A stretch of DNA of 59,575 nt from a bacterium (GCA_026417415.1 JAOADG010000013.1:1-59575), one strand, 5' to 3'. Positions 16,349-29,628 are shown, counted from the stretch's first letter. Notes: generated by a model not told the origin, from the sequence alone. Program-made: numbers and translations.

Positions 16349-17026
16349 ATGAAAAAACTGTTCACCATTTTTTTTCTACTCACGATTTATGAATGTGTAG
16401 CAATAATGGAATGCAATGCATCGGAAGAACTGTTTCAAATTGAGCAGTTGAATTTGATAGTTCCAGTTACTGATGCAAGCATTGAGCAATTTTTCGATCG
16501 CTCAATATTGTATCGTCCAACGTTTATCGTTCAAGACGGTTTGCCCTGGTATGGTGCAATCCGCGATGATTGGTATCCTCATACAAAACCGAGAAAACAT
16601 TATGGTGTAGATTATTATGCAGACACCATTTTCGTATTGGCAATGGAAAAAGGGACAGTATTGAAAGTTGGAAAAAATCGGAAAGCAGGTGGAAATGTTA
16701 GAATTCTTCATTCTGATTCCATAGAAACCATGTATTTACATCTTTCAAAGGTATTCGTATGGAATGGAAAAACCGTTCAAAGAGGTGACACACTTGGAAT
16801 CATCACAAAACCTGAAGGAAATGCATATCAAACTCAACTTCACTTTTCTATAGTAAGAAAAGGAAAATTTATCAATCCCTTTGATTATCTCAAAACATCT
16901 ATCCGTTTCCGGGAAACTGTTCAGCGACGTTTGATGGAGTTTCAGAAAACGAAAATAGAGCGAGAATGGGAACGTAAAAAACTTGTGGAAGAGTTCAATC
17001 GTTTCCAGACGAATCAAGTACCCTAA
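16349..17026 (+). CDS. M23-family (LytM-like) peptidase homologue, possibly inactive
   Basis: A 225-residue exported protein: a signal peptide (about residues 1-24), then a LytM/M23 fold. The first zinc motif is intact (H84 and D88 in KHYGVDY), as is a His in YLHLSK (H131). The usual HxH motif reads Q163-L-H165, so the first His, the proposed general base in LytM, is replaced by Gln. Either the protein is a degenerate regulator like EnvC or it hydrolyses poorly. A charged helix ends the protein. It is divergent from the symporter and convergent with citF. Confidence 0.75.
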   Translation: MKKLFTIFFLLTIYECVAIMECNASEELFQIEQLNLIVPVTDASIEQFFDRSILYRPTFIVQDGLPWYGAIRDDWYPHTKPRKHYGVDYYADTIFVLAMEKGTVLKVGKNRKAGGNVRILHSDSIETMYLHLSKVFVWNGKTVQRGDTLGIITKPEGNAYQTQLHFSIVRKGKFINPFDYLKTSIRFRETVQRRLMEFQKTKIEREWERKKLVEEFNRFQTNQVP

Positions 17027-20321: not shown

Positions 20322-20555
20322 ATGAAAGATAAACAACTTTCCCTTACTGAAAGTGGTTTTTTGTTTGATCATAATTCAGGCCTCACCTATTCATTGAATC
20401 CAACAGCTACCAGAATTATGCAAATGTTGATGGATGAAGAAGACGCAGAAACCATCGTCCAAAAAATTCTTGAAGAATATGAAGTGGATGAAAAAGAAGC
20501 ACGATTCGACATAGAACAATTCGTTCAACAATTAAAAAAATTTGACCTTCTATAA
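20322..20555 (+). CDS. PqqD-family RiPP recognition element protein
   Basis: A 77-residue stand-alone PqqD-like protein. The family pattern is complete: a short beta hairpin (GFLFDHNSGLTYSLNPTATRIM), then three helices with the DAETIVQKILEEYEVDEKEARFDIEQFVQQL pattern and a C-terminal leucine pair. PqqD domains bind the leader segment of ribosomally made peptides and hand it to modifying enzymes. A strong AAAGGAG site precedes the ATG. It is the first gene of a tight cassette with the ATP-grasp gene (17 bases downstream) and the PLP-enzyme gene. No separate precursor-peptide gene was found between 20.2 and 23.3 kb. Confidence 0.88.
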   Translation: MKDKQLSLTESGFLFDHNSGLTYSLNPTATRIMQMLMDEEDAETIVQKILEEYEVDEKEARFDIEQFVQQLKKFDLL

Positions 20556-20572
20556 ATATCTAAGGAGAAAGA

Positions 20573-21661
20573 ATGAAAAAAAGTAAGCAGGGAAATGTAC
20601 GTGCTGTTGCGGTTACAGGTTTACAGGCAACGGACAATCCTGCACCCGGAATTGCTGTTGCAAGGTCAATACGCGAAGGGGGATGGGATGGACTTATCGT
20701 CGGGTTAACTTACGATACTTTTGATACGGGAAGTTACAATAGCGATTTAATTGATCAAGTGTTCTTAATTCCGTATCCGAATACTGGCGCCGAAGCGACA
20801 CTTGACCGTCTCCATTACATTCATTCCATCACACCCTTAAGTGCAATTATACCCAACTTAGATTCGGAACTTGATTTGTACAATACGATTCGAGACGATT
20901 TAACTGCGATGGGAATAGGATTATTCATACCAGATACTAGAACTTTACGAATGCGATCAAAAGCCAAATTGGCAGAGTTTTGTCATAACCATAACCTACC
21001 TGCACCCATTACCGAGTTGGTGTATGATTTTGCTGGATTAGAACGGGCTTTATCCAAAGTTGGATATCCTGCTGTCATTAAAGGGGTGTTTTATGAGGCC
21101 TATACCGCATATACATGGCAAGAAGCCACTATCCATTTTGATAAATTGAAGTTAAGGTGGGGATTACCAATTTTAGTTCAAAACGTGATTCCCGGTGAAG
21201 AATACAATATCTGCGTTGTAGGTGACGGAAAAGGTGGGACGGTTGGAGCGGTCCCTATGCGTAAATTGCGTCTCACTGAAAAAGGAAAAGCATGGGCAGG
21301 AATTACCATAAAAGATCCAGAATTAATTGAACTAGCAAAAAAAACCATGGAGGCATTGAAATGGCGAGGTCCATGCGAACTTGAACTGATGAAACACGAA
21401 GCCAGCGGTCAATACTACATTATTGAGATAAATCCACGTTTCCCTTCTTGGTGCTATTTGACTACAGGAGCAGGACAAAATTTACCTTATGCGAATTTAC
21501 AACTTGCCCTTGGAGAACAACCGTTAGAACTTGCGGAATATCGTAGTGGAGTGACCTTTGCTAGACACGCCATTGACATCATTTGTGATTTGTCGGCTTT
21601 AGAAGGTCTTACCATGAAAGGACAAGTGATTTATCGCAAGCAACCAAAACACAAAGAATAG
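20573..21661 (+). CDS. ATP-grasp family ligase-like protein
   Basis: A 362-residue ATP-grasp enzyme. Visible elements are an N-terminal Rossmann-like pre-domain (VRAVAVTGLQATDNPAPGIAVARSIRE region), the ATP-binding strand with Lys (GYPAVIKGVFYEA), the hinge (PILVQNVIPGEEYNI), and the metal-binding end (CELELMKHEASGQYYIIEINPRFPSW), with the Glu and Asn-Pro-Arg expected for Mg-ATP. ATP-grasp enzymes activate a carboxylate as an acyl phosphate and join it to an amine or thiol. The substrate is unknown. The gene is 17 bases after the PqqD-like gene and precedes the PLP enzyme by 58 bases, so a joint pathway is likely. A good AGGAGA site precedes the ATG. Confidence 0.85.
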   Translation: MKKSKQGNVRAVAVTGLQATDNPAPGIAVARSIREGGWDGLIVGLTYDTFDTGSYNSDLIDQVFLIPYPNTGAEATLDRLHYIHSITPLSAIIPNLDSELDLYNTIRDDLTAMGIGLFIPDTRTLRMRSKAKLAEFCHNHNLPAPITELVYDFAGLERALSKVGYPAVIKGVFYEAYTAYTWQEATIHFDKLKLRWGLPILVQNVIPGEEYNICVVGDGKGGTVGAVPMRKLRLTEKGKAWAGITIKDPELIELAKKTMEALKWRGPCELELMKHEASGQYYIIEINPRFPSWCYLTTGAGQNLPYANLQLALGEQPLELAEYRSGVTFARHAIDIICDLSALEGLTMKGQVIYRKQPKHKE

Positions 21662-21719
21662 TATTGATACCAACGAAATTCATCCATGAGAATATCAGAA
21701 AAAATTTTGAGGAGTGATT

Positions 21720-23108
21720 ATGTACAATCAATCAGAAGATTTAAAATCCACTAAACCAAAACAGTTTTGGGAAAAACCTACCATTGTTAAACACATCGTT
21801 GGATTAACAAACAAGTTTGGACGGCACCCTTCCACTTTACCTTACAATTCTATTGATGGGATTGCAGTGAGTGATTTGGTAGAAGAATTTGGTTCACCAT
21901 TATACGTAGTTTCAGAAAGCACCTTAAGAAGACGCTATAGAATGTTTATGCAAGCATTTGCTCCTCGTTATCCAAGGGTTCAATTGGCTTACAGTTACAA
22001 AACCAATTATTTAGATGCGGTGTGTTTAACCTTGCATACAGAAGGTGCATGGGCTGAAGTAGTTAGTGATACCGAATACGAAATGGCTATCCGCAATGGT
22101 GTACCGGGTAATCAAATTGTGTTCAATGGACCTCAAAAATCAGAAAAAGGTTTAGAACGTGCCATTCAAGATGGTGCGATGATCAATTTGGACAGTTTTG
22201 ATGATTTTTACTTAATGGAACGTGTAGCCGAAAGATTAGGCAAAAAAGCGGAGGTCGGCATTCGTGTTTCTTTCCAATTGAATTATCCACCATGGTCAAG
22301 ATTCGGTTTCCAATATGAAACTGGGGACGCTTATGCCATTGCCAAACGAATTTATGAAAGCCCATTTTTAGAATTGGTCGGGTTGCATTGTCACATTGGT
22401 ACCTATGTAGATGACCCCAATATGTACGCTAGTGAAGCAACGAAAATCGTAGAATTGGCTACGTTATTAAAAAATGAATTTGGAATAAAATTAAAGTATT
22501 GGGATTTAGGGGGTGGCTTTGCTTCAAAAAATACTTTACACACCGCTTGGTTACCGGGAGAACAAACGTGTCCCGATTTTAACACATACGCTGAAGCCAT
22601 CTGTCCTATCCTGTTAGAAGGTCCCTACCAAGGTGAAGAGTTCCCATTGTTGCTGTTTGAACATGGCCGCGCTATGGTTGATGAAGCGATGCACCTAATT
22701 GTTACCATCATCAGTCAAAGACGATTGAATGGAGAAAAGAAAGCAATCGTGGTTGATGCTGGAATCAATTTGTTATCCAATGTCTATTGGTACAAGTACG
22801 ATATGCGCTTAGCAAGAGATGCAGGAACATTGACGGAAGGCACCACTATCCTTGGAAATTTATGTATGAACATTGATGTTATCTCTCATGATACCGCTTT
22901 ACCTAGTATGAAAACAGGTGAACATTTGGTGATCCGAAATATCGGTGCTTACAATTTCACCCAATCCACTCAATTCATTCATACCAGACCTGCGGTAGTA
23001 CTAATTGATGAGCAAGGAAAAGCGCATGTGGTCCGTGAACCTGAAACAGTAGAATATTGGAAACAATTGGATAGGGTGCCTGAACATCTTAAACTGAACA
23101 AAATGTAA
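21720..23108 (+). CDS. Diaminopimelate-decarboxylase-like PLP enzyme with leader-like N-terminal tail
   Basis: A 462-residue fold-type III PLP enzyme. The barrel starts near residue 47 and has the PLP Lys (K94 in AYSYKTN), the HCHIGT motif, the phosphate-binding DLGGGF loop, an HGRAMVDEA segment where typical decarboxylases have EPGR, and VDAGINLLSN near the end. Family members decarboxylate diaminopimelate, ornithine, arginine or related amino acids. Residues 1-46 are extra: FWEKPTI (16-22) and VGLTNKFG (27-34) resemble RiPP leader segments with an aromatic-x-x-Pro motif that binds PqqD-like domains. I chose the ATG at 21720, five bases after GGAG; a GTG at 21714 overlaps that site. Confidence 0.82.
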   Translation: MYNQSEDLKSTKPKQFWEKPTIVKHIVGLTNKFGRHPSTLPYNSIDGIAVSDLVEEFGSPLYVVSESTLRRRYRMFMQAFAPRYPRVQLAYSYKTNYLDAVCLTLHTEGAWAEVVSDTEYEMAIRNGVPGNQIVFNGPQKSEKGLERAIQDGAMINLDSFDDFYLMERVAERLGKKAEVGIRVSFQLNYPPWSRFGFQYETGDAYAIAKRIYESPFLELVGLHCHIGTYVDDPNMYASEATKIVELATLLKNEFGIKLKYWDLGGGFASKNTLHTAWLPGEQTCPDFNTYAEAICPILLEGPYQGEEFPLLLFEHGRAMVDEAMHLIVTIISQRRLNGEKKAIVVDAGINLLSNVYWYKYDMRLARDAGTLTEGTTILGNLCMNIDVISHDTALPSMKTGEHLVIRNIGAYNFTQSTQFIHTRPAVVLIDEQGKAHVVREPETVEYWKQLDRVPEHLKLNKM

Positions 23109-26232: not shown

Positions 26233-26927
26233 ATCCTTGGGGACTATTGGGTGAAGCAAGTGCGCGCACGAATTGGGAAAAGTTTTTACTTTCTAAAGAA
26301 ATCCCTTTTTTAGCTATAGATCGCGCACCTATCAAAGAGTTAAAGTCCATTTCTTTAGTTCTCATTGTGGACAATGATTTTCGTTCAAAGTACACCAAAA
26401 AGATTTCGCTATTTGAAGATCATATCAACCCTGATGCACCAATCGTTGCGAATTTAATTGCCGCTTCGGCTGCTCGTCTTACAAAATATCTAAAAAGACC
26501 TAATCGAGTGGTAGGCATTGCAATTTGTCCACCTTTAGGAAAATACACCATTGAGTTTGCTACTACTGAAATCACCGAAGAAAAGATGATAGCGACTGCC
26601 CTTCAAGAGTTGAAGCGTTTGGAGTTACCAATAGAGACCATTGGAGATCGATGTGGTGGAGTGTTTCCGAGAACCATTGCGATGTTAATCAACGAAGCAA
26701 CTTTTGCTTTACAAGAAGGATTAGCATCGGCAGAGGAATTGGATCTTGCAATGAAATTCGGTGTAAACTATCCTAAAGGACTATTGGAATGGGGCGACGA
26801 AATTGGAGCAAAATTTATTTTAGATGTCATTGAAGGCATACGTACCGAAACCAGAGATTCACGTTATCGGGCATCACCTTACCTGATTCGACACGCTGCT
26901 ATGAATTTGCCTTTAATCAATTCGTAG
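26229..26927 (+). CDS. 3-hydroxyacyl-CoA dehydrogenase C-terminal-domain protein
   Basis: A 232-residue protein whose second half resembles the C-terminal dimerisation domain of 3-hydroxyacyl-CoA dehydrogenase (GDRCGGVFPRTIAMLINEATFALQEG, then ELDLAMKFGVNYPKGLLEWGD). The first half resembles a degraded Rossmann region (IKELKSISLVLIVDND; no glycine-rich NAD motif), with an IAICPPLGKYTIEFATT segment where LHFFNP would stand. PaaH-type enzymes carry a second such half at their C-terminus, so this gene looks like that half made separately. The start is a GTG at 26229 forming GTGA with the upstream stop, after a GAGG site. It is convergent with, and overlaps by 11 bases, the PgsW-like gene. Confidence 0.8.
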   Translation: MNPWGLLGEASARTNWEKFLLSKEIPFLAIDRAPIKELKSISLVLIVDNDFRSKYTKKISLFEDHINPDAPIVANLIAASAARLTKYLKRPNRVVGIAICPPLGKYTIEFATTEITEEKMIATALQELKRLELPIETIGDRCGGVFPRTIAMLINEATFALQEGLASAEELDLAMKFGVNYPKGLLEWGDEIGAKFILDVIEGIRTETRDSRYRASPYLIRHAAMNLPLINS

Positions 26928-27909
26928 AAGTATTCCAATGATAGATTTTTTTACAACTGCCCGCCGGTGGAAGTGGGGTAGTATCAAAAGGGATTCCCCA
27001 TTTTTTAGCAAGATATTCTGCATAATGCAAATAGATAACGGGAACATTCTGTTGTAAAAACTCTTTTAACATAGAGGGCTCGTTTTCAGGTAGTTCAACT
27101 TTTTTAGTTAGTAGACCTGCACCAATTTCTTTATTGCGTGTGTTCCCTAACGCAGCGATGTTCCCCCCGACAAGAATCACAGCTTTTATCGGACCTTCTT
27201 TTTGTATGGCTTTTATTCTTTGTTGGATTTGTTTCCGAAAAGTTTTTTCCACCAACGGGGTTAGACCATATTTATCCATTGTTTCAGTTAAGATGGTAAT
27301 TCCTTCTTTTGATAAGTTTCTACCTCGATCACTGCTTCCACCAAAAGTCACCAGTTTGGCTCTTTCCCAGTCAGGGATCTCCTGACAAATCGCATCTTCT
27401 AAATCAAGAATAGTAAATTGAGGGTTAGTCATACCCCATTCAGAGGAAGCAAGTGAAAGTTGTACGATAGGTTTCGCTCCTAAGGCACGTATTCCACACA
27501 TCCCAGCAAGATAAAAGCCCGGAAAACTTCCGGTAGCTATGATAGCCACTTTATCACCGGCTTGGACGCCTGATTCATAAAGCCATCGGGTTACCAATGC
27601 TGCAAAGTCCGGGGTTAACGAAGTGCGTTTAGAGCTTAGTTGACCTAATGTAGAGACGATAGGACTTTCGTCTGGTCCAATCAAACCCGTGCGATTGGGA
27701 TCAATATCTGAGTCAATTTCACCAATTTTTTCTAAATGTGCTTTTTGCGCTATCTTTAGAGTGCGCTCCATTTCTTGAGCAGCAGTGAGCATAATCTTTT
27801 GTAATTCTTCTTTCGTGTAAAGTCGTGTTTTTATTTTTAATCGTGAACAAGCGTCACTATTCCAAAAGAAAACCCAAACGATGAGGATAAAGTGTATCAC
27901 AGATTTCAT
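26917..27909 (-). CDS. Poly-gamma-glutamate system protein (PgsW-like)
   Basis: The 330-residue protein starts with a membrane anchor or signal (about residues 4-18). A family-specific DPNRTGLIGPDESPI segment (about 71-85) and GQLSSKRTSLTPDFAALVTRWL follow, then two nucleotide-binding-like stretches (DKVAIIATGSFPGFYLAGM; AVILVGGNIAALGN). This pattern is that of the poly-gamma-glutamate system proteins found beside pgsB/pgsC capsule genes in various bacteria; the molecular role is not established. No pgsB, pgsC or pgsA is in the window. The ATG lies inside the 5' end of ggt on the other strand. Only a weak ribosome site is visible. Confidence 0.75.
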   Translation of the reverse strand: MKSVIHFILIVWVFFWNSDACSRLKIKTRLYTKEELQKIMLTAAQEMERTLKIAQKAHLEKIGEIDSDIDPNRTGLIGPDESPIVSTLGQLSSKRTSLTPDFAALVTRWLYESGVQAGDKVAIIATGSFPGFYLAGMCGIRALGAKPIVQLSLASSEWGMTNPQFTILDLEDAICQEIPDWERAKLVTFGGSSDRGRNLSKEGITILTETMDKYGLTPLVEKTFRKQIQQRIKAIQKEGPIKAVILVGGNIAALGNTRNKEIGAGLLTKKVELPENEPSMLKEFLQQNVPVIYLHYAEYLAKKWGIPFDTTPLPPAGSCKKIYHWNTSTN

Positions 27910-29628
27910 AAAATTATTCTTTTGATTGTTTTAACGGGATTTGTACCGATTCATTGGTTAATAGGATGTGCCTATAAAAAAGTAACGAAAACTACTGAAC
28001 CGCCCAAATTCACCATCCCCTTTCAACATTCAACTCCTATTTCAACCAGTAAAGGTCTGGCGGTAACTGCTCATCCATATGCTTCTGCTGCGGCAGCAGA
28101 AATTTTAAAATCGGGGGGAAATGCTGCTGCCGCTGGAATTACCGCTTTAACAGTATTATCGGTTGCAGAGCCACACGCAAGCGGTGTCGGTGGTGGTGGC
28201 TTTGCGTTGTATTATGATACGAAAGCAGGATTGGTGCGATTACTTGATTATCGTGAAACAGCACCACAACTGGTTGACACTGCACTTTATTACCAACCTT
28301 CAGACACTTTTCGCATGCGGTTACAACACGGTGGATCTTCAGTGTTAACACCGGGTGCACCTGCTGGATGGCAAAAGTTATACCGTTCCTTTTCCAATCA
28401 ACCATTGTCAAAGTTGCTGATGCCAGCAATTCAATTGGCAGATACAGGATATGTACCCAGTGAAAAACAAAAGAAAATGATTTTAGAGCATTCCGATGCT
28501 TTATCAGAAAATGAACTTCTAGCAAATCTATTTATTGAACGAAATGAGGAATTACAACCCATTCCCAAAAAGAAACTATTCTTTTCAGCATTATCCAAAA
28601 GTTATCAGATGGCAGCGGCCAGTGAAACCTTTGAAGTGTTTACAGATTCGGTTTTAGGAAATTCAATCGTAGAAACAGTTCAAAAAAGTGGCGGCGCATT
28701 ATCCATCAATGATTTACAACAATATCAAGCCATTTTTAAGAAACCGTTAATCTTTACCTATCGTGGGTACGAAATCTATACCTTGCCTATGCCGTCTGCA
28801 GGTGGAACAGCGGTGGCAGTAGCGTTAAAAATTCTTGAAAAATATCCCTTGAAAGATTTTGGTTGGCAATCCCCCAAACATTTGCATATCGTTGCTGAGG
28901 CCATTCGGCAAGGAATGACCGATGGATTTGCTTGGAGCGGTGATCCTGCTTTTGTACCTACTTATACTGATTCCATATTATCCGAAAAATACATCCAAAA
29001 AGCCACCATCTTGCTTCCTATGGATTCTGTTAGAATGCGTGCCGTTCCTTACGACACTTCTACTTCCCATGGCAATACTACACACTTAGTCATTGCTGAT
29101 TCTGCGGGAAATCTATTGTCGCTAACTCAATCTATCAATTATTTTTTTGGTGCAAAAGTGTATGATCCAAATTCAGGGATACTGCTGAATAACCATGCGG
29201 CAGATTTTGATTGGCGATCGTCAAATCGGAGAAATTCCATCGCTCCTTTACGAAAGCCAAGCAGTTGGATGGCACCCGTGATTATCTTGAAGGATAAAAA
29301 ACCTTACTTAATTGCAGGTAGCCCAGGTGGTCCCAGAATCCCAGCGGTGATGGTGCAACTGATCACGGCGATGGTTGATTTTGAGTTACCCTTGAACCAA
29401 GCGATTGACGCACCACGATTTTTTCCTAATGGAAAACGTTTTGAATACGAACCAAGAATTTCTGAAACTACTTTGGATGAATTAAGAAAGTTAGGATGGG
29501 AATTAAAACCAAGAGAACAAGCAGATCCGTATTTTGGTGGTGCACAAGCCATTCAATTTCTTCCTGATGGTACAAAAATAGGGGTTGGTGATACCAGACG
29601 TGATGGCAAACCTGTGGCTGCAGAATAA
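27892..29628 (+). CDS. ggt: Gamma-glutamyltransferase, probable lipoprotein
   Basis: GGT cleaves or transfers the gamma-glutamyl group of glutathione, gamma-glutamyl peptides or poly-gamma-glutamate. The 578-residue precursor has a lipoprotein signal (LIGC, Cys at 26), the NAAAAGITALTVLSVAEPHASGVGGGGF region of the large subunit, the autoprocessing site and new N-terminal nucleophile T396 (GNTTHLVI), and the small-subunit GSPGGPRIPAVM loop. The start is a GTG with GAGG five bases upstream. It overlaps the divergent PgsW-like gene by 18 bases at the 5' end. The pairing suggests turnover of a gamma-linked glutamate polymer, which is inference. Confidence 0.9.
   Translation: MYHRFHKIILLIVLTGFVPIHWLIGCAYKKVTKTTEPPKFTIPFQHSTPISTSKGLAVTAHPYASAAAAEILKSGGNAAAAGITALTVLSVAEPHASGVGGGGFALYYDTKAGLVRLLDYRETAPQLVDTALYYQPSDTFRMRLQHGGSSVLTPGAPAGWQKLYRSFSNQPLSKLLMPAIQLADTGYVPSEKQKKMILEHSDALSENELLANLFIERNEELQPIPKKKLFFSALSKSYQMAAASETFEVFTDSVLGNSIVETVQKSGGALSINDLQQYQAIFKKPLIFTYRGYEIYTLPMPSAGGTAVAVALKILEKYPLKDFGWQSPKHLHIVAEAIRQGMTDGFAWSGDPAFVPTYTDSILSEKYIQKATILLPMDSVRMRAVPYDTSTSHGNTTHLVIADSAGNLLSLTQSINYFFGAKVYDPNSGILLNNHAADFDWRSSNRRNSIAPLRKPSSWMAPVIILKDKKPYLIAGSPGGPRIPAVMVQLITAMVDFELPLNQAIDAPRFFPNGKRFEYEPRISETTLDELRKLGWELKPREQADPYFGGAQAIQFLPDGTKIGVGDTRRDGKPVAAE

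Follow-up and report, generated by a model that had tools for sequence, protein, structure and literature searches.

A leader-like tag on a decarboxylase and a lasso-type recognition element in a conserved bacterial gene module

Closest described systems and the gene module

RiPP recognition elements (RREs; RiPP, ribosomally synthesized and post-translationally modified peptide) are used in genome mining for peptide natural products, and their clients are assumed to be precursor peptides. Here, we describe a gene module found in a bacterial DNA stretch of 59,575 nucleotides (GCA_026417415.1 JAOADG010000013.1:1-59575; the whole analyzed stretch is hereafter called the window), which encodes a stand-alone PqqD-type RRE, an ATP-grasp ligase and a pyridoxal 5'-phosphate (PLP)-dependent decarboxylase with a lasso-leader-like tag at its N-terminus, and which co-occurs with a fusion of a urea transporter and an M23 domain (UT-M23).

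The closest parallel of the RRE is found in the leader recognition of lasso and LPP systems (TbiB1, TfuB1/FusB1, PbaB1, and LppB), with which the module has in common the RRE fold, the leader-contact residues and the ligand motif of the [Y/W]xxPx[hydrophobic] type. The lasso leader ligand motif was defined as [Y/W]xxPx[L/V/I/F/A], and in LppB residue N33 holds the kink at the leader Pro, D70 forms a hydrogen bond with Tyr, while F74 and M78 line the pockets, the equivalents in PbaB1 being G42, Q79, F83, and L87 (PMC13381572). In the module, in contrast, the motif sits on a 450-residue metabolic enzyme and not on a short precursor, and the leader peptidase is not a part of the module.

As regards the two enzymes, BtrJ is the ATP-grasp ligase of the butirosin pathway (BtrJ-BtrI-BtrK). 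This pathway also comprises an alanine-racemase-fold decarboxylase, BtrK, acting on a joined amino acid (PMC7857480). The small protein of the module is, however, an RRE and not an acyl carrier (Pfam and NCBIfam scans assigned the one in the window to the PqqD type only, without any carrier-protein match), and a transporter/M23 fusion accompanies the module. By sequence, the closest decarboxylase is FigC/FslC, in which a Met replaces the residue binding a free side-chain amine. FigC, SbnH, AcsE, MccE, and BtrK group with diaminopimelate decarboxylase (DAPDC), and this group is unrelated to polyamine synthesis (PMC7857480). The substrates of the FigC/FslC group are amino acids that have previously been linked to another moiety; the module differs from it by replacement of the citrate-binding His and Arg, by an ATP-grasp partner instead of an NIS synthetase, and by the leader-like tag.

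In the window, all three genes are localized on the plus strand: the RRE gene at 20322..20555 (77 amino acids; Pfam PqqD, E = 9e-16), the ligase gene at 20573..21661 (362 amino acids; a module-specific subfamily near PF15632 and PF02655, matched at 2e-13 and 6e-8, respectively), and the gene of the alanine-racemase-fold decarboxylase, nearest to FigC/FslC, at 21720..23108 (462 amino acids; Orn/DAP/Arg decarboxylase N- and C-terminal domains, 6e-31 and 3e-11). The first two genes are separated by 17 bases and the last two by 58 bases, as counted from the ATG at 21720, which was taken as the decarboxylase start; a GTG at 21714 falls within the AGGAG ribosome site (21710-21714). Sites of the AGGAG type precede all three genes. 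A preliminary description of this locus had reported the same trio, with the same gaps and strong ribosome sites, all of which was confirmed. Its limits (20322-23108) hold for the trio; two features were missed, the UT-M23 gene on another contig and the tag within the decarboxylase. Neither did that description recognize the trio as a named system, and no published description of the combination was found in our literature search, which left subscription journals mostly uncovered and is weak evidence of novelty.

The decarboxylase tag and its recognition element

Module decarboxylases begin with the conserved stretch [K/R]x[Y/W/F]xxPx[I/L/F/V]xxxxxGxxNKFG, which a variable linker connects to the enzyme domain. 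In the window, this leader-like tag (KQFWEKPTIVKHIVGLTNKFG) is encoded at 21759..21821 (plus strand), with WxxPxI at 21768-21785 and GxxNKFG at 21801-21821. Among 30 decarboxylases (here and below, conservation counts run over related genomes), the Pro and the aromatic residue are always present (30/30 each; Y27/W2/F1), and Gly is found in 29, Asn in 28, and Lys in 28 of them. The first half of the tag (WxxPxI in the window) fits the motif [Y/W]xxPx[L/V/I/F/A] bound by lasso RREs.

A tag profile of 26 positions was run against 21 whole trio genomes and matched the decarboxylase N-terminus once in 20 of them (E < 1e-10); no further gene of any size was found to carry the tag in the 21 genomes, and nothing else scored at E < 0.2. 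In the remaining genome, G168, only YEKPTI is left of the tag. The module of this genome (locus L059, G168:C6, 6967-11935) is divergent: it has two ATP-grasp genes in tandem, its tag lacks GxxNKFG, and no M23 domain is fused to its urea transporter. In another genome, G230, the Lys of GxxNKFG is replaced by Val and the module is retained. Comparison within the same genomes showed that LysA paralogues of trio genomes do not carry the tag.

The RRE was compared with solved structures using a profile of 27 module RREs. The best matches were TbiB1 (3e-13) and TfuB1 (4e-12), i.e., lasso-peptide RREs solved with a leader peptide, and PqqD itself was matched at 0.002. The NCBIfam lasso PqqD model was matched by all 27 module RREs, the one from the window scoring below the cut-off of that model. 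The predicted fold (predicted local distance difference test, pLDDT, of ~80) matches 6jx3 and 5v1u with a probability of 1.0 and a best root-mean-square deviation of 1.6-2.0 Å. In a HMMER alignment including LppB (chain 9x8z), residues N26 (codon 20397..20399), D63 (20508..20510), and F67 and L71 (20520..20534; all on the plus strand) of the window RRE correspond to N33, D70, F74, and M78 of LppB and to G42, Q79, F83, and L87 of PbaB1, with the spacing of 37-4-4 identical in the three proteins. Position 26 is Asn in each of 53 RRE-tag pairs and position 63 is Asp in 52, whereas F67 and L71 are each retained in 51, and the four residues rank among the most conserved positions of the RRE. By these measures, the RRE belongs to the lasso type, and its residues for leader contact are conserved. 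The only change of D63 (to Tyr) among these pairs occurs in G389, the only genome with Phe in place of Tyr in the tag (locus L091, G389:C21; RRE at 2546-2791, decarboxylase at 140-1495); the probability of this coincidence is about 1 in 53, so that it is only suggestive of covariation of the RRE and the tag.

It should be stressed that the window RRE exceeds the cut-off of the model of the HPr-rel-A PqqD protein (TIGR04353, PqqD_rel_X; 42.5 bits against 35), yet the module RRE scores better against lasso RRE models and structures. No HprK-related kinase was present among the immediate neighbours that were scanned or clustered, the genomes themselves not having been searched for HprK. The present NCBIfam name (HPr-rel-A PqqD) would mislead for the module RRE.

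Considering the pairing of the tag motif with the RRE residues, binding of the decarboxylase tag by the RRE is very likely. Because the tag is carried by the enzyme, the RRE contact residues are kept, and no other tagged protein was detected, the decarboxylase itself, and not a separate peptide, is probably the client. The preliminary description had named two options, the PLP enzyme itself and a peptide from another locus; the former is favored by the tag and the RRE contacts at the sequence level, while the latter finds no counterpart in the tag search of the 21 genomes. The conserved small genes suggested there as worth looking for nearby do not adjoin the trio in most loci, according to neighbour clustering.

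The enzymes, the transporter fusion and the distribution of the module

The decarboxylase profile matched best, among PDB entries, the N-citrylornithine decarboxylase FigC/FslC (7kh2; 1e-97), followed by DAPDC (2e-70). In all 30 decarboxylases, the catalytic residues K94, H225, C382, D386, and Y411 are present, and M383 directly follows the catalytic Cys, as in FigC, within a loop of the form CM[N/Q]xD (30/30). The Arg that in DAPDC serves the distal carboxylate (PMC7857480) and the acid for a free side-chain amine are replaced in all 30 module enzymes examined, whereas almost every LysA paralogue encoded in the same genomes combines the Arg with a CE[S/T/N]xD loop. The proposed citrate contacts of FigC are H357 and R387 (PMC7857480), the positions of which are occupied by Ile/Leu and by an invariant Gln, respectively, in module decarboxylases. 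Since Met follows the Cys, the DAPDC Arg is missing and the FigC citrate contacts are replaced, the enzyme probably acts on an amino acid whose side-chain end, an amine, is masked and uncharged, rather than on a citryl compound. As judged from its residues, the active site speaks against a role in making lysine or polyamines.

Among family models, NF041039 (N-citrylornithine decarboxylase) reached 238 bits, with the cut-off of 500 not attained, and TIGR01048 (LysA) gave 200-243 bits against 297.9, i.e., below the cut-off in 18 of 18 trio genomes tested, nine of which have a separate true LysA. In the complete-looking genome of the window (G000), the module decarboxylase is the sole LysA-like match at 1e-30. 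When predicted from an alignment of two rows, the decarboxylase structure was of low quality (mean pLDDT of 51).

The ATP-grasp ligase retains catalytic-type residues (E285, N287, R289, and P291; K170, E269, and E271), including the metal-binding ExNPR motif, and its closest relatives of solved structure are of a generic kind only (2pn1, carbamoyl-phosphate synthase). It is the obvious candidate for making the side-chain mask of the decarboxylase substrate, and it is fairly likely that the two enzymes act, as ligase and decarboxylase, on one substrate.

The gene of the fourth part, UT-M23, comes after the decarboxylase gene in most loci; in the genome of the window, it is localized on a contig other than that of the trio (G000:C19:18136-19011). 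It encodes a membrane protein in which a complete urea-transporter domain (PF03253; 151 and 225 bits in the two proteins scanned, with the cut-off of 25) is fused to an M23 domain. Of 32 trio genomes tested, 31 had PF03253 above the cut-off, the sole miss being a 67% complete draft, as against none of 63 trio-less genomes (two weak matches stayed below the cut-off) and none of 14 control genomes; Fisher's exact test for this co-occurrence gave 3e-24, uncorrected for relatedness. The urea-transporter part is matched over its full length and has two LPxxxxPF-type signatures, in which the urea-signature Thr is frequently replaced by Ser, Ala, or Val. In the M23 part, the HxH motif is kept, and the first, zinc-binding His of HxxxD is absent in nearly all members. 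The protein thus differs from described urea transporters of the PF03253 family by the fused periplasmic M23 domain and by the substituted Thr, and because of the replaced Thr and the lost His it is taken as a putative transporter of some small polar molecule, with a probably non-catalytic cell-wall-type domain. Another gene of the window (16349-17026) encodes a secreted, stand-alone M23 peptidase-like protein, unrelated to the fused M23; it was rejected as the M23 part of the module, being a separate gene with its own HxxxD motif.

The distribution of the trio was examined in sampled genomes, using first the ATP-grasp protein and then family profiles as queries. It was present in 21 of 386 genomes sampled around G000, in 52 of 390 sampled around another trio genome (G047), as well as in 3 of 9 and 12 of 40 genomes from the phyla of G233 and G293, respectively. 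Altogether, this gives about 71 distinct genomes of many families and at least four phyla (as delimited by the search tool), where the tally counts ATP-grasp matches, each genome once, and the complete trio was read only in fetched loci. A contig scan with one protein returned a single locus, L009 (draft of bacterium CG2_30_54_10), and on plasmids only distant ATP-grasp relatives were found. The preliminary description had made a joint pathway dependent on conservation beyond close relatives and in a common context, and both were observed.

The PqqD-ATP-grasp-decarboxylase tandem, with the RRE gene directly before the ligase gene, was found in 54 of 55 independent loci having upstream sequence, so that recurrence of the order is far above chance. 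Stop-to-start gaps within the module are mostly between -17 and +26 bases, i.e., genes often overlap or nearly abut. The sole exception is the draft G402 (locus L097, G402:C66), in which a tagged decarboxylase and the ligase have no PqqD within 1.5 kb upstream. Moreover, distance matrices of the three module proteins are correlated (r of 0.73-0.85; permutation maximum of ~0.3), as expected for genes inherited together, with species relatedness also contributing.

Proposed pathway, alternative explanations and neighbouring genes

In the proposed pathway, the RRE would grip the tag at the decarboxylase N-terminus and, through a predicted contact with the ATP-grasp enzyme, dock the decarboxylase to the ligase in a putative complex. 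The ligase would couple the side chain of an amino acid to another group, giving an amide, and the docked decarboxylase would then strip the alpha-carboxylate from the joined amino acid, yielding an amine product. The dedicated UT-M23 fusion might carry this small polar amide/amine over the inner membrane and tie the process to the periplasm. To the whole model, i.e., RRE-docked coupling of ligation and decarboxylation together with transport, we assign a probability of about 0.6 on the basis of comparative sequence data. We moderately favor docking over modification of the tag as the purpose of the RRE-tag pair. Slightly better than even, in our estimation, is the broader proposal that lasso-type leader recognition was co-opted from peptide synthesis, the tag and a dedicated RRE linking ligase to decarboxylase in a widespread pathway which needs UT-M23.

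Several observations weigh against this model. The tag of G168 is devoid of its GxxNKFG half, and in G402 the RRE does not adjoin the trio although the tag is retained. In the RRE-to-tag structure prediction, the RRE was confident (pLDDT ~80) and the tag was left unplaced. The frequent replacement of the signature Thr makes the transporter substrate uncertain, and about half of the checked trio genomes, including G000, are without a separate LysA above the cut-off, so that a lysine role may be possible there. The RRE could also hold the tag for a purpose other than channelling.

The main competing explanation, which we consider possible but rather unlikely, is that the tag is a substrate, i.e., the RRE presents the decarboxylase N-terminus to the ligase, which modifies GxxNKFG; the modified enzyme would then be active, or would carry its own substrate as LysW and BtrI do. 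An RRE in RiPP pathways normally hands the leader to a modifying enzyme, and GxxNKFG is highly conserved (N and K in 28/30 each) beyond the RRE-contact part, within the reach of modifying enzymes. A contact between modifying enzymes and the C-terminal part of the leader has been suggested for LPP precursors (PMC13381572), and BtrK, of the same decarboxylase clade, works on a carrier protein (PMC7857480). The module is kept, however, both where the Lys is Val (G230) and where the motif is gone (G168), and modification of the tag alone leaves the unusual decarboxylase pocket and the transporter unexplained.

The remaining readings are much less probable. A citryl-type siderophore similar to rhizoferrin, with the ATP-grasp enzyme standing in for an NIS synthetase, would agree with 7kh2 being the nearest characterized decarboxylase and with the common Met after the Cys, but this is very doubtful given that the FigC citrate contacts are lost (H357 to Ile/Leu and R387 to Gln) and that neighbour clustering yielded no recurrent siderophore receptor or exporter. 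A RiPP cluster with its precursor peptide encoded elsewhere in the genome is a shade less probable still: stand-alone PqqD-like proteins usually serve precursor peptides, and the window RRE passes the NCBIfam cut-off for an HPr-rel-A peptide chaperone, yet a search of the 21 trio genomes with the tag profile gave no protein but the decarboxylase, the lasso leader peptidase (B2; PF13471) exceeds its cut-off in just 2 of these 21, outside the module, and most loci are without a conserved small gene adjoining the trio. Least probable is an ordinary LysA (DAPDC) or polyamine decarboxylase lying beside unrelated genes. Pfam and NCBIfam do class the enzyme among DAP/Orn/Arg decarboxylases, and no other LysA-like gene was detected in the genome of the window at 1e-30; against this stand the scores below the lysA cut-off in 18/18 genomes, the separate true LysA in 9/18, and the replacement, in all members, of the DAPDC Glu and Arg and of the acid for basic substrates, while the linkage of RRE, ligase, tag, and transporter would be left unexplained.

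Across several phyla, the data favor an enzyme of 50 kDa as the RRE client, which would alter the reading of orphan RREs. Under the docking model, the module would moreover represent a naturally occurring docking system based on a peptide tag, which might be useful for enzyme engineering, and would bring to light a small-molecule pathway which is now annotated piecemeal as 'PqqD', 'carbamoyl phosphate synthase-like', 'diaminopimelate decarboxylase', and 'urea transporter'.

In the window, the gene upstream of the trio encodes a YceD-family protein and the downstream ones a response regulator and a sensor kinase; neighbour clustering revealed no consistent recurrence of these three genes as module partners. 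In other genomes, a secreted TPR protein of ~210 amino acids is encoded downstream of the transporter in 8 loci (including L012, L045, L049, L054, L057, and L058), an outer-membrane-like protein of ~290 amino acids recurs at the same side in 3 loci, and a small secreted protein (~135-187 amino acids) with no assigned family is encoded upstream of the RRE in 4 loci (L010, L011, L046, and L048). These neighbours were excluded as core parts, being recurrent yet not universal. In three genomes of the family of G047 (loci L013, L045, and L047), genes of DUF2202 (ferritin-like) and DUF4405 proteins are present ahead of the module. Further downstream in the window, at 26917-29628, there is a divergent pair of genes encoding a protein similar, by eye, to those of poly-gamma-glutamate systems and a gamma-glutamyltranspeptidase-like protein.

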